NCBI GenBank assembly: GCA_018970605.1
Contig: JAGWWA010000006.1
Coordinates: 1-60,942 of the forward strand
Direction of reading: 5' to 3'
Source of the DNA: Planctomycetota bacterium
GTDB lineage: Bacteria > Planctomycetota > Planctomycetia > Pirellulales > UBA1268
Length of the DNA: 60,942 nt
Numbering within the stretch: the first letter of the stretch is position 1; each line of letters starts with the position of its first letter. Below, piece after piece: positions 17,910 to 24,561 of this stretch. Below the pieces are notes generated by a model that made no database searches, was not told the DNA's origin, and saw only the letters and a list, made by a program, of their open reading frames with translations. A program made the position numbers and the translations under genes.

Positions 17910-20782
<2,873 letters not shown>

Positions 20783-20790
20783 GGGTTCGG

Positions 20791-21912
20791 TCAGTCCGCG
20801 GCCAGCGGCATGATCACGTAGCCGTAGCCGTCCTCGGTCGAGCAGACGCAGGCACTCTGGGCGTCGGTCAGTTCCACCGTCACGGCGGCACCGGGATCGA
20901 GCACCCGGAGAAAGTCCGACATGAACCGTGGGTCGAGCTTGATCTTCACCGTGGCGCCGGCATGGTCGATCGGCAGTTCCACCCGGCTCTCCCCGCTCTC
21001 AGCCGACCGGCCGGTGAGCACGAGTTGCCCGGGCTCGAACGAGAAATCGACCCCCTTCGACTGTTCACTGGTGACGATCGCCGCCTGACGGACCGCAGCG
21101 AGGAGCGGTCCGACGACCAGGTGCACCCGCATGGCGTCGGGACGATCCGGGAACACGTCTCGCCACCTGGGGAACCGGCCCTCGACGAGTCGCGCCGAAA
21201 TCGTCGTCCCGCCAGTCTTCACGAGAATCTCGCTGCCACGTACGGCAAGCTGCACCGGCTGATCCGCCGCACCGAGGCAGCGCTCGACAAGCTGCATGGC
21301 CCGGGCCGGCACGATCGGCTGTGCTTCCCCGATGCCACCGTCACGGCTCTCCCCAGGACCCTGCATCCTCGCCAGCCGTCGTCCGTCGGTGCCGACGGCG
21401 ATGACGGCCGCTGGTGTCATCTCGACGAGCACGCCGCCAAGGGCGTAGCGGCTCGATTCGTTGTCGGTGGCGAACACCGTCCGCCGCACCAGTTCGCGGA
21501 CCAGAGGTGTCGCCAGTTCGATGCAACCGCCGTCCGGGAATGTCGCGACCGCCGGGAACTCCAGTGGATCCTCCGCCGGCAGACGAAACTCGCTTCGAGG
21601 TGCCTTGACGAGGGCTGCGGTGCCGTCGGAGTGGATGTCGAACACGGTGCCGGCAGGGCTCTCACGGACGATCGCCGCCAGCCGTCCGCTCGGGAGAAGC
21701 ACGGCTCCCGGGGCGACCGTTTCCACGCCCTCGAGGTCGATCCGGATGCCCACCTCGAGGTCGGTGGCCATGAGCACGACCCCGTCGCGAGTCGCCTCGA
21801 CTTTGACGTTCGTGAGCACGGGCTTGGGCGAACGGGATGGCACGACCGCCGAGGCACTCTGGAGGGCGGCGAGCAACGACTCCTTGGGGCAGCGAATCTT
21901 CATCGTCGGCAC
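20791..21912 (-). CDS. dnaN: DNA polymerase III subunit beta (sliding clamp)
   Basis: The 373-residue clamp has the expected three repeated domains. Typical sequences are the N-terminal IRCPKESLLAALQSASAVVPSRSPKPVLTNVKVEA, ATDLEVGIRIDLEGVE, and the C-terminal KIKLDPRFMSDFLRVLD with the end stretch GYGYVIMPLAAD close to the canonical YVIMPM(R/A)L. The family normally ends in MPL/MPM plus one to three residues, which is seen here. It heads dnaN-dciA-gyrB. A possible -10 (TACAGT on the minus strand, 21954-21959) lies 42 bp before the start, with no convincing -35. Confidence 0.95.
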   Translation of the reverse strand: MPTMKIRCPKESLLAALQSASAVVPSRSPKPVLTNVKVEATRDGVVLMATDLEVGIRIDLEGVETVAPGAVLLPSGRLAAIVRESPAGTVFDIHSDGTAALVKAPRSEFRLPAEDPLEFPAVATFPDGGCIELATPLVRELVRRTVFATDNESSRYALGGVLVEMTPAAVIAVGTDGRRLARMQGPGESRDGGIGEAQPIVPARAMQLVERCLGAADQPVQLAVRGSEILVKTGGTTISARLVEGRFPRWRDVFPDRPDAMRVHLVVGPLLAAVRQAAIVTSEQSKGVDFSFEPGQLVLTGRSAESGESRVELPIDHAGATVKIKLDPRFMSDFLRVLDPGAAVTVELTDAQSACVCSTEDGYGYVIMPLAAD

Positions 21913-22412
21913 GGGTCCTTGGGGCCGGTCGGAGGCGTTCCGAGAGGCCCCTTACTGTACCCGAAAAATCATGCTTCGGAACTGGTCTCGATGCCTCCCG
22001 GGCGATACGAACATGCCCGGCCAGCTAGCCTGTTTTCTGTGTTTTTTCATGATGAAGAACAGAAGTCGGCAGAAGGAAATAGGCACCAGTAAGAGCGGCA
22101 CCCGCGATCCTCGACAGAGGTTGGTTCGAGAAACCCATCCGTCGTCGGGATGACCCATGGAAAACAGGATCATGCGGCCCGCAACAGATCCTTTTCCGGA
22201 GTGCACAACTCGTCGAGTGCATGTCGAGACGATGTCGGAAGACCGCCGGAGACACGATCAGTCGAGTGTCGCTGATCGGACGAATGGGCTGCTGGATGGC
22301 GTGAGGTTGGAGATGTGCCCGAGTCGTCTCCCGGTCGTCGGGATCGTCGACTCAGCGATCGTCGCGGATGCGTGCGCCAACCGACATCGTGCCGACATCG
22401 GGATGGCGGGGC
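21913..22412. other. 500-bp gap between dnaA-like gene and dnaN
   Basis: No gene is seen. The part 21960-22170 is richer in A/T than its surroundings and includes a run of six T's. CCTGTTTTC (22029-22037) recurs inverted as GAAAACAGG (22160-22168). A local AACAG/CTGTT pairing is also possible. In many bacteria the origin lies beside dnaA, so I searched both strands for TTATCCACA and saw no exact copy and no cluster of near matches. The gap may hold the dnaN promoter and possibly a non-canonical origin; neither is proven. Confidence 0.4.
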
Positions 22413-23249
22413 TCATCCGCTCCCGCGCCGCCGCGGTTGGGCGGTATGGGTCAGCAGCAGTTCCACGTCTGCGGCGAAGGCGGCGTCCGAGGTCATCCGC
22501 AGTTCGACGGTGCGGACGCCCCGCATCACGGTGGTATGGTCGCGTCCGCCAAACGCCACCCCGATCGAGTCGAAACTGCTGCCGGTGAGGTGTCGAGCGA
22601 GATACATTGCCAGATTGCGCGCCTGCACCACGCCGCGCGACCTCCCTTCCCCCGACAGAGCCGCCGCGGGCAGGCCATGACGGCGGGCGGCAGTGTGGAT
22701 GATCCGGTTCATCGACCATGCGGTTCGTCCGCCCGTTGCAGCCTCCTTGGGCCTGGTGGGGACATGGACGATCAGGCCTGCCGACAGTCGCGACTGCAAG
22801 GCTGGGTCGAGTCCGCCGGAAGCGTGCGCCAGTCCGACCGTGGCACAGATCGAGATTCCCCGGCGGGCGAGTTCATCGAGAAACACGGCCGCGGCCTGCT
22901 GCCGTTCGCCACTGCCGACCAGATCGATGCGATCGACGATGACGAGGCCGGCCGAACCGTCGTCGCGGAGGCTGCCGAGGCCGCCCTTGTCCAGGCCGCG
23001 GCCGAGTTCCGGTCCGGCATGCCGCTGCACCCTCTTCGTCTCCCCGCACAAGCCCTCGAGATCATCGAGCAGGCCTGAAAGAACGGCCTCGGAGACCAGG
23101 GTCACAACCGCCGGACCCACGATCGTCGAGGCCTCATTCGGCCCCGTGGCCGGCTGGGCAAGCAGCGAAAATGCCTCGCGGAGCAGCCTTGCCCATGGTG
23201 GGAAGGTCGTGCGGTCGTGCGGCCAACGGTCGCGTTGGGAAGCCGGCAT
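22413..23249 (-). CDS. Reduced DnaA-like initiator without a P-loop
   Basis: A 278-residue protein with a clear DnaA domain IV: VVQARNLAMYLARHLTGSSF (208-227) and the DnaA-box-recognition signature FGGRDHTTVMRGVRTVE (233-249). Before it lies a shrunken AAA+ region. A Walker-B-like strand (GLVIVDRIDL, 101-110) and an arginine-finger-like box VII (LQSRLSAGLIV, 151-161) are kept. No GxxGxGKT P-loop is visible, and the lid/sensor-II part between box VII and domain IV is missing. Domains I and II are also absent; an in-frame stop 12 bp upstream excludes a longer start. AGGGG precedes the ATG. Its position ahead of dnaN-dciA-gyrB is the standard dnaA place. It is either this organism's initiator or a DNA-binding paralogue. 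Confidence 0.8.
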   Translation of the reverse strand: MPASQRDRWPHDRTTFPPWARLLREAFSLLAQPATGPNEASTIVGPAVVTLVSEAVLSGLLDDLEGLCGETKRVQRHAGPELGRGLDKGGLGSLRDDGSAGLVIVDRIDLVGSGERQQAAAVFLDELARRGISICATVGLAHASGGLDPALQSRLSAGLIVHVPTRPKEAATGGRTAWSMNRIIHTAARRHGLPAAALSGEGRSRGVVQARNLAMYLARHLTGSSFDSIGVAFGGRDHTTVMRGVRTVELRMTSDAAFAADVELLLTHTAQPRRRGSG

Positions 23250-23314: not shown

Positions 23315-24535
23315 CTATCCGGCGCCCGACGCAGCGTGAAGCCCCGCCTCCGCAATCCCGCGAAACACGCGATCGAGTCGATGGACGGCTTCCGTGATGT
23401 CGGTCTCCGTCGTCGAGGGGCCGACGCTTGCGCGGATCGCGGACTGCGCCACCCAGCCTGGCAGGTCGAGCGCGAGGATGGCCGGCGACGGATCGCTCGA
23501 CCCACTCGCGCAGGCCGTGCCGGTCGCCAGGGCGATGCCCGCGAGGTCGCAGGCCATCATGAACGCCTGCCGGTCGCAGCCCCGCACTGCCATGGTGGCG
23601 ATGTGGGGCGCACGGTCGGCACCGTGTCCGACCACCATCGCGTCGAGCCCGTGGCGGCCGGCTGCGGCCACGAACTGGTTCTCGAACCGGTCGCGGAGGT
23701 TCGCCGTCCGGAGCCGCATCTCATCGCGTGCAGCGGCGGCGAGGTGCAGTGCCACGGCGAATCCCACGGCGAGCGGCACCGCTTCCGTGCCGCCCCGCAG
23801 CCCGAGTTCCTGCGGCCCGGGGGTGAGCGGCATCACGTCGACACCGCCGCGAACGAGCAGGCCGCCGATGCCGCGGGGGCCGCCGAACTTGTGCGGCGCC
23901 AACGCCAGGGTCGTCAGCGGTAGGGTGGCGAACGAGAGGGCGTCCCACGCGGCCGCCTGCGTGGCGTCGGCATGGACGAACAGCCGTTCTCCGACGCCGG
24001 TCTCGGCGAGCGGGACGGGCGATTCGCGGATGCCGGTCTGGCCGCAGACGAGCGTCGTCGAAAGGAGCACGCGGCCCGGCGTCGAGGCGGCCAGGATGGC
24101 TGCGGCGCCAGACGCGGAGCCGTCTGCCGCCAGTGGCAGGCGACGTACCTCCCAGCCGCGGGCCGCGAGATCCGCGGCTGCCGCGATCACGCTGCCGTGG
24201 TCGCGAGGCGAGATGCCGACCGTGCCTGGATGAGGTCCCGCGGTTCCTAGCATCCCGAGGCGGTTTGCCTCGGTCGCCCCACTGGTGAAGATCAGCCGGT
24301 CGCGTGAGCCGCCTGCGGACCGGCCGCCGAGCAGAGCGACGAGGCGTTCACGGGCATCCTCCAGGATGGCCCGGGCGCGGCGGCCCGCCGCATGAGGGCT
24401 CGAGGGATTCGCGAAGGCGTCGGCCGACGCACGACGCATCGCCTCGTCGATCCTGGGGTCGAGCGGCGTCGTGGCCGCGTGGTCGAGGTAGATCAACTGC
24501 CGGGTGTCCCCGGTGGGCGAACGGGCGGCGTCCAT
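23315..24535 (-). CDS. Cysteine desulfurase (NifS/IscS family)
   Basis: A PLP enzyme that removes sulfur from cysteine for Fe-S clusters and tRNA thiolation. The frame is open further upstream, but the family begins at LIYLDHAATTPLDP, giving the start at 24535 and 406 aa. Key features are the NPSSPHAAGRRAR stretch (43-55), the PLP-contacting His in SPRDHGSV (H113), the PLP lysine in LAPHKFGGPRG (K216) and the persulfide-forming cysteine in ATGTACASGSSDPS (C342). It lies 26 bp after the aminotransferase and 65 bp before the dnaA-like gene, so it is probably in one transcript with both. A natural partner is MnmA (14900-16009). Confidence 0.92.
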   Translation of the reverse strand: MDAARSPTGDTRQLIYLDHAATTPLDPRIDEAMRRASADAFANPSSPHAAGRRARAILEDARERLVALLGGRSAGGSRDRLIFTSGATEANRLGMLGTAGPHPGTVGISPRDHGSVIAAAADLAARGWEVRRLPLAADGSASGAAAILAASTPGRVLLSTTLVCGQTGIRESPVPLAETGVGERLFVHADATQAAAWDALSFATLPLTTLALAPHKFGGPRGIGGLLVRGGVDVMPLTPGPQELGLRGGTEAVPLAVGFAVALHLAAAARDEMRLRTANLRDRFENQFVAAAGRHGLDAMVVGHGADRAPHIATMAVRGCDRQAFMMACDLAGIALATGTACASGSSDPSPAILALDLPGWVAQSAIRASVGPSTTETDITEAVHRLDRVFRGIAEAGLHAASGAG

Positions 24536-24561
24536 GGCGCGTGCGACCCCGTGGGCCTTGA

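Follow-up and report, generated by a model that had tools for sequence, protein, structure and literature searches.

A short, P-loop-less DnaA paralogue in the dnaA position of a planctomycete genome and its possible role beside a complete DnaA

Hda, a DnaA-related regulator, has an AAA+ part and is not known to have a domain IV, and in eukaryotic origin complexes ATPase-dead subunits occur that can still shape assembly. The protomers of Escherichia coli DnaA are described as joining head to tail, with Arg285 contacting the ATP of the next protomer, and the end protomers bound at R1 and R4 as having their nucleotide at the outer edge and working with ADP (PMC5742627). Roles of Arg399 and T435 of the same protein are given in that source. 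Three Gram-negative DnaAs are reported to have opened DNA in vitro without ATP and not without the arginine finger, which was also said to stabilize the AAA+ fold in cis (PMC8287927); conservation of the finger therefore need not mean a contact in trans. For Acidaminococcus fermentans, two dnaA genes have been described side by side in an rpmH-dnaA-dnaA-dnaN cluster (PMC4403523).

The locus investigated here lies in a window, the whole stretch of 60,942 nucleotides that was analyzed, from a draft assembly of 2.86 Mb in 164 contigs with a completeness of 75.8%. Open reading frames and Pfam matches agreed with the initial annotation, which had placed a dnaA-like gene ahead of dnaN-dciA-gyrB in the standard dnaA position. 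All genes of the block lie on the minus strand, in the order class-V aminotransferase, short dnaA, dnaN, dciA, gyrB:

23315..24550, minus strand: class-V aminotransferase, of the cysteine-desulfurase type by our reading, upstream end approximate (PF00266, 5.1e-33)
22413..23249, minus strand: short P-loop-less DnaA paralogue, 278 aa (ORF; Pfam Bac_DnaA_C only; ortholog clade)
20791..21912, minus strand: dnaN, beta clamp (ORF; Pfam)
20432..20782, minus strand: dciA (PF05258, 3.3e-12)
17910..20390, minus strand: gyrB (ORF; Pfam)

The gene order around the short dnaA was conserved in the family and in the order. In genus g5 (L041, L054) the block is inverted relative to the window, with the short dnaA and its aminotransferase neighbor directed away from dnaN. 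In genome G065 the whole block from the aminotransferase gene through short dnaA, dnaN and dciA to gyrB was present twice, on two contigs (L048, L049), which represents either a strain mixture or a duplication.

The short dnaA starts with an ATG and encodes 278 residues including a clean domain IV, both as first annotated. Three parts were located on it:

22506..22709, minus strand: domain IV, the DnaA-box-binding helix-turn-helix, residues 181-248, with FGGRDHTTV (Pfam, PDB matches, model)
22776..22793, minus strand: arginine-finger box SRLSAG, residues 153-158, with R154 (invariant R154 and G158; alignment column)
22926..22952, minus strand: Walker-B-like strand, residues 100-108, one acid left (alignment; structure model)

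Pfam assigned residues 181-248 to the DnaA C-terminal domain PF08299 (6.6e-21, 74.6 bits against a cut-off of 31.5). The DnaA ATPase domain PF00308 (Bac_DnaA) had no match in the protein at E up to 10, and the sole other Pfam match listed (0.17) was at chance level; a P-loop-less relative from genus g7 scored 23.0 with PF00308, at a cut-off of 23. The PDB matches of the window protein were DnaA chains over domain IV, with 1j1v first (9.6e-12). In the alignment from this search, with numbering counted by hand, R203 corresponds to E. coli Arg399 and the HTT of GGRDHTTV to His434-Thr435-Thr436.

The absence of a P-loop and of a sensor-II lid had been noticed from the sequence and was confirmed: the strict Walker A motif GxxxxGK[TS] was not found in the window protein, and the lid and sensor II of the long DnaA of the same genome aligned to gaps, including the sensor II arginine that occurs in 47/47 long rows. 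The two AAA+ elements thought to be kept were also recovered. The structure model contained the Walker-B-like strand at residues 100-108, in which D106 is kept and the second acid is changed to R, leaving one of two acids, and R154 of the arginine-finger box shared a column with the box VII arginine of the long copies and of generic DnaAs. R154 and G158 were found to be invariant. Domain I and room for domains I-II were absent from the protein. The NCBIfam model TIGR00362 gave 80.5 bits, below its cut-off of 343.9, and no Hda model was among the seven NCBIfam models that matched at E up to 1. The structure model, with a mean pLDDT of 74.8, was good for domain IV only (92-98 across most of it), and the AAA+ remnant was poorly predicted. 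Its top Foldseek matches were DnaA chains, the overall superposition being poor save for domain IV, where 1j1v reached a TM score of 0.94 by target length.

An overlooked N-terminus had been excluded in the initial annotation by an in-frame stop just upstream. The nearest such stop is actually 158 codons away; the frame is open for 157 codons further upstream of the ATG, in a stretch that overlaps the neighboring gene and that, among the codons looked for, contains no ATG, GTG or TTG and four CTG only. The exclusion nevertheless stands. In several relatives, G035, G036 and G049 among them, the frame opens directly behind the stop of the aminotransferase gene, and an overlooked N-terminus was rejected on this ground. 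The short gene is genuine and not a chance frame, as copies without a strict P-loop were scored in 26 family genomes. The loss of a P-loop segment during assembly, named as an alternative in the initial annotation, is unlikely: the segment is missing from the same place in independent genomes as well.

A search of the genome with the DnaA ATPase family gave one match, on another contig. This open reading frame of 567 residues has GPSGVGKT, VLVIDD, a lid with sensor II and domain IV, and its residues 229-539 aligned with the DnaA chain 8btg (1.1e-55). The sole sign of a domain I was a weak DnaA_N match below the cut-off. TIGR00362 gave 304.7 bits for this long copy, also below 343.9, and the NCBIfam Hda model matched it below cut-off. 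The C-terminal-domain search of the genome returned these two DnaA genes and no third.

The second DnaA with an intact P-loop that the initial annotation had suggested looking for was thus found, and the window gene is a paralogue. Initiation without any DnaA with an ATP site, as had been considered, is not supported, given this full-length protein in the same genome, and 23 family genomes with a visible dnaN locus have no short copy beside dnaN. The expectation that the protein would need a partner was supported: a short copy occurs in 34 family genomes, and by our count 31 of them also have a second DnaA C-domain, the exceptions being G036, G049 and G010, which are 51, 88 and 72% complete. 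The tetranucleotide correlation of the long-DnaA contig with the window was 0.988, and that of six window pieces with the rest 0.983-0.990; the relatives G051, G046 and G050 scored as high, so that this measure alone is not decisive. The AAA+ part of the long DnaA was 93-94% identical to its counterparts in G035 and G051, the nearest genomes to the window by gyrB and dnaN. Contamination as the source of this contig is unlikely given its tetranucleotide make-up and the kinship of its DnaA, which together support, short of proof, that it comes from the same organism. The window gene is almost certainly an origin-side short DnaA paralogue, with a complete DnaA encoded separately. The surprise of a P-loop-less initiator in the dnaA position is explained by this second protein.

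By our own count, a DnaA C-domain was present in 69/72 family genomes and two or more in 34/72. Two or more were found in 234/251 order genomes outside the window's family, counting genomes of at least 85% completeness, and in 89/118 genomes of a phylum sample, in which the same-paralogue identity of the pairs was checked up to class level only. Three family genomes (G037, G003, G021) and two of the phylum sample (G350, G352) had no DnaA C-domain match and are probably incomplete assemblies. A quick tree was calculated from 115 DnaA rows, one sequence being present twice; it included 29 of the 47 long rows and 15 further loci with long, generic or short rows. Short copies from the family, the order and the class grouped with L212 in a clade of SH-aLRT 98, apart from the clade of the long copies (SH-aLRT 99). 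L212 fell among the short copies of the order, with support of 85-88 at the nearest forks. Several short rows were long-branched; the exact forks are unsure and the supports to be taken with care. By this tree the short/long split is at least as old as the class.

The 97-row alignment left out eight items: the G034 short copy, on account of Ns, and seven pieces without the domain IV pattern, which include the short copy of G039, copy L116 from the order and the first piece of G062. Shorter rows gave way to longer ones of the same genome and type, and for this reason the alignment does not contain a fragment from G038 (L043, 4611-5222), a second, long-type DnaA of 204 residues in a genome with no short copy beside dnaN. 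Domain IV of the family's long copies reads GRRSHST in 47/47 aligned rows and that of the short copies mostly GRDHTT; the two proteins may differ in the boxes they favor.

The state of the P-loop was compared in order and family. The best-scoring 30 order-level loci had a P-loop in 30/30 cases, and in 29/30 dnaN or the aminotransferase gene was no farther than about 3 kb away. Because these had been picked by score, 20 further order loci with frames under 400 residues were taken from below the top scorers. Here a strict P-loop was present in 17/20, the box VII arginine in 19/20, and dnaN or the aminotransferase gene in 14/20; the arginine was lacking in one short copy, L334. The P-loop was changed outside the family in L339 (G152), where it is lost (CPKGDGRI), and in L327 (G181), where K is changed to R (GPPGNGRS); in L336 it reads APFGYGKS. 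The distance from P-loop to domain IV was about 243-272 residues in the order copies measured, a lid-length stretch.

Within the family, 57 of the 72 genomes were judgeable at the dnaN locus or by the short gene, fifteen not being judged at the dnaN locus. Eight had a short copy with a P-loop, 26 a short copy without the strict motif and 23 no short copy beside dnaN. The P-loop keepers were G033, with the lid-length stretch, and genera g2 and g5, without the lid. Short copies lacking the strict motif occurred in genera g1, g7, g11 and g12; the 26 include G034, unreadable at the P-loop (Ns), G062 and G063, with a broken and a truncated copy, respectively, and G071, with GK in GRSEWGKV, the one row among 25 P-loop-less rows to have the Walker A lysine. 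The box VII arginine was present in 24/24 readable P-loop-less rows, 8/8 family P-loop rows and 17/17 order rows. Absence beside dnaN was found in two genomes of g3, one of g4, four each of g6 and g8, five of g10, six of g1 and one of g2, and 22 of these 23 genomes had a single C-domain (G038 has two). In 8 loci that lack the gene and have the aminotransferase frame next to dnaN, the end of that frame was 471-603 bp from dnaN. In tblastn searches of 25 loci without a short copy no remnant was found, and in two of them the short copy merely lay on another contig.

On a gyrB and dnaN tree of 58 rows, 56 of them with a state and with G010 and G012 left out by the program, the three states needed 10 changes, and strongly supported branches forced at least 3 changes each to "no P-loop" and to "no gene". 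These counts do not tell loss from gain; P-loop loss is taken as the direction because the P-loop is present in most order-level copies. The alignments show that the short paralogue of this family has lost Walker A, the lid and a large part of Walker B and has kept domain IV and the finger box. What remains is an origin-side DnaA paralogue that has eroded step by step, one patch, the finger box, being spared. In the literature searched, most subscription journals being outside it, we recognized no P-loop-less DnaA, no two DnaAs in planctomycetes and no such erosion, which is no proof of absence.

Selection on the short gene was estimated from pairs of relatives. Between the window and G035, where synonymous change is near saturation (dS 1.05 and 1.67), dN/dS of the short copy was 0.31 for the AAA+ remnant and 0.09 for domain IV, and that of the long copy 0.07 and 0.03, respectively, with 0.05 for dnaN. 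The closer pair G035-G051 gave 0.34 (remnant) and 0.12 (domain IV), and the looser pair G050-G043 0.40 and 0.35. In all 16 pairs dN/dS was below 1, with 0.03-0.35 for domain IV; the remnant gave 0.25-0.57 in P-loop-less g1 pairs with readable ends, with G034-G047 (0.12) as the exception. These ratios indicate that the short gene is constrained but relaxed. Conservation was counted in 23 P-loop-less rows. Two genomes were left out of this count, G062 (L301), whose short copy is broken by a TAG, and G063 (L281), where it is truncated to 164 residues. Conservation of at least 90% was reached by six of 122 AAA+ columns (D, L, S, R, L, G); four of them are the finger-box residues S, R, L and G, and the first L lies six columns ahead of the box. 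In domain IV, 12/69 columns reached this level. The median pairwise identity was 0.27 for the remnant and 0.48 for domain IV.

These figures bear on the possibility that the paralogue is on its way out, in a stage before loss, with the long DnaA carrying initiation and the short one weakly selected and of little role. The clean absence of the gene beside dnaN in 23/57 judged genomes, with no remnant, would fit this, as would the broken and truncated copies in G062 and G063 and the remnant ratios of the g1 pairs. It is set against dN/dS below 1 in 16/16 pairs, low values in domain IV, a finger box kept across the P-loop-less copies and the long persistence of the gene in several genera, and we consider it possible but unlikely.

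The region ahead of dnaN was examined for origin features:

21913..22412, no strand assigned: intergenic stretch ahead of dnaN, presumed origin (GC-skew sign change; intergenic also left where the short gene is gone)
22201..22209, minus strand: GTTGTGCAC, DnaA-box-like, with a TTRYGCAC-like core kept in five relatives, a candidate by sequence (position computed by us)
21953-21967, minus strand: TTTTCGGGTACAGTA, about 50 bp ahead of dnaN, with a GGGTACAGTA core

The GGGTACAGTA core or a close form was present ahead of dnaN in 25/57 loci, and the 15-mer TTTTCGGGTACAGTA, with up to 2 mismatches, occurred once in its own genome; it is probably the dnaN promoter. The GC skew changed sign at about 22-24 kb of the window, with 8/8 bins negative as far as 24 kb, where the last one stood at -0.001, and 10/12 positive beyond, although the genes on both sides of the flip lie on the same strand. 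In the complete chromosome of G138, 20 samples of 12 kb gave positive skew in 7/10 up to 2.1 Mb and negative skew in 9/10 beyond; its short dnaA is at position 1 and its long dnaA at 2.69 Mb, nearer the other turning point. In G033 the sign flips at the short-dnaA locus, with 9/9 samples to the left negative and 3/5 to the right positive. A minus-to-plus skew across the dnaN start was found in 11/14 family loci with a short copy and 8/17 without; such local figures weigh less than the long samples because the downstream genes are co-oriented. By our own count the short copy stood at the record start in 17/20 single-contig chromosomes of other families, with the long copy elsewhere. As records may be rotated to the annotated dnaA, which PMC13241502 describes for those of its strains, this position is no independent evidence of an origin.

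No canonical DnaA box was found in the presumed origin stretch of the window. TTWTNCACA occurred 0 times in the window against 0.24 expected, and TTATCCACA with up to 2 mismatches 49 times against 39 expected (7/100 shuffles gave as many), with no cluster at the origin stretch. Ahead of dnaN, TTWTNCACA was enriched in the order, with 8 against 0.27 expected in 15 loci, and the family had 5 against 1.17 in 56 loci; there was none at the G138 locus. TTNTCCACA was present in 3/6 family loci with a P-loop copy and 2/50 other family loci (Fisher 0.0066), in an exploratory test of one of several patterns tried.

The place beside dnaN and at the GC-skew change could suggest that the short protein acts as the main initiator, independently of ATP, and opening of DNA in vitro without ATP is reported for some Gram-negative DnaAs (PMC8287927). 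However, a complete DnaA is encoded in the same genome, and a long-type C-domain match is still present in the 23 family genomes that have no short copy next to dnaN, which makes this highly improbable. The short protein might also be a DNA-binding regulator that competes with the long DnaA at the origin and dnaN region, or caps its filament on the wrong side, and so lowers initiation or transcription. An intact domain IV without the ATPase would suit such a protein, and the gene adjoins dnaN and its probable promoter. A pure competitor would need no arginine-finger box, yet nothing else in the AAA+ remnant is kept as well as this box, and this role seems to us rather improbable.

We propose, at a probability of roughly 0.45, that the short protein is an eroded origin-side paralogue which acts as an ATP-less end subunit and offers its arginine finger to the long ATP-DnaA. 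The mechanism taken by itself, a DNA-bound end subunit lending its finger, we put forward tentatively, with the odds somewhat against it. The short protein would sit on origin DNA as the end subunit of a DnaA oligomer and, binding no ATP, would be joinable on one face only. Its arginine finger would reach the ATP of the neighboring long DnaA, and this contact would fix the start and direction of the ATP-DnaA filament, the empty nucleotide face staying at the outer edge. A DNA-bound subunit with an arginine finger and no ATP site would fit a place like those of the R1- and R4-bound protomers in E. coli. The subunit would be helpful but dispensable, which would explain why several lineages lack the gene. 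Counting against an end subunit are the absence of the gene beside dnaN in 23/57 genomes and its faster evolution than the long copy, which fit a relic too, as well as the absence of a canonical DnaA box from the window's origin region and L334 without the arginine. A regulator or a relic would fit much of the same evidence.

More broadly, the origins of the order might be served by a two-part initiator, composed of a distant ATP-loaded long DnaA and an origin-side short DnaA with an expendable ATPase, the short part having been stripped repeatedly in this family to a DNA reader with an arginine finger. It would be a counterpart of the eukaryotic ATPase-dead origin subunits, with the filament direction set by a subunit joinable on one side. 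We offer this generalization as a speculation that is unlikely to hold in full.

Here the textbook dnaA position holds a gene for something other than the complete ATP-driven initiator, so that annotation by position misleads. The natural series from complete to ATP-less to absent, beside an intact second DnaA, makes it testable which parts of DnaA are needed in an end subunit and how far ATP binding is required of every subunit in a bacterial initiation complex.

With canonical DnaA (8btg, 1l8q, 1j1v) the window protein shares domain IV with the FGGRDHTTV helix, the box VII arginine and the place beside dnaN; it differs in having no domain I, Walker A, lid or sensor II and a reduced Walker B. 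The short origin-side DnaAs of order and class belong to the same clade, have the same neighbors and likewise have no room for domains I-II. Unlike the window protein, they mostly keep the P-loop (30/30 top-scoring, 17/20 further loci) and the lid-length stretch. Hda is comparable in the idea of a DnaA-related regulator, but the window protein is its reverse, with domain IV and without a complete AAA+ part, and matched no NCBIfam Hda model. The small PRK06030 proteins with a DnaA C-domain (NCBIfam NF004686-8) resemble it in having a DnaA-type domain IV without a complete AAA+ part; their models scored 20.6, 20.0 and 16.7 bits with it, far below the cut-offs of 136, 148 and 181. Acidaminococcus fermentans has two dnaA genes per genome as well, and here the complete one lies on another contig. 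To the ATPase-dead subunits of eukaryotic origin complexes the short DnaA may be likened by analogy only.
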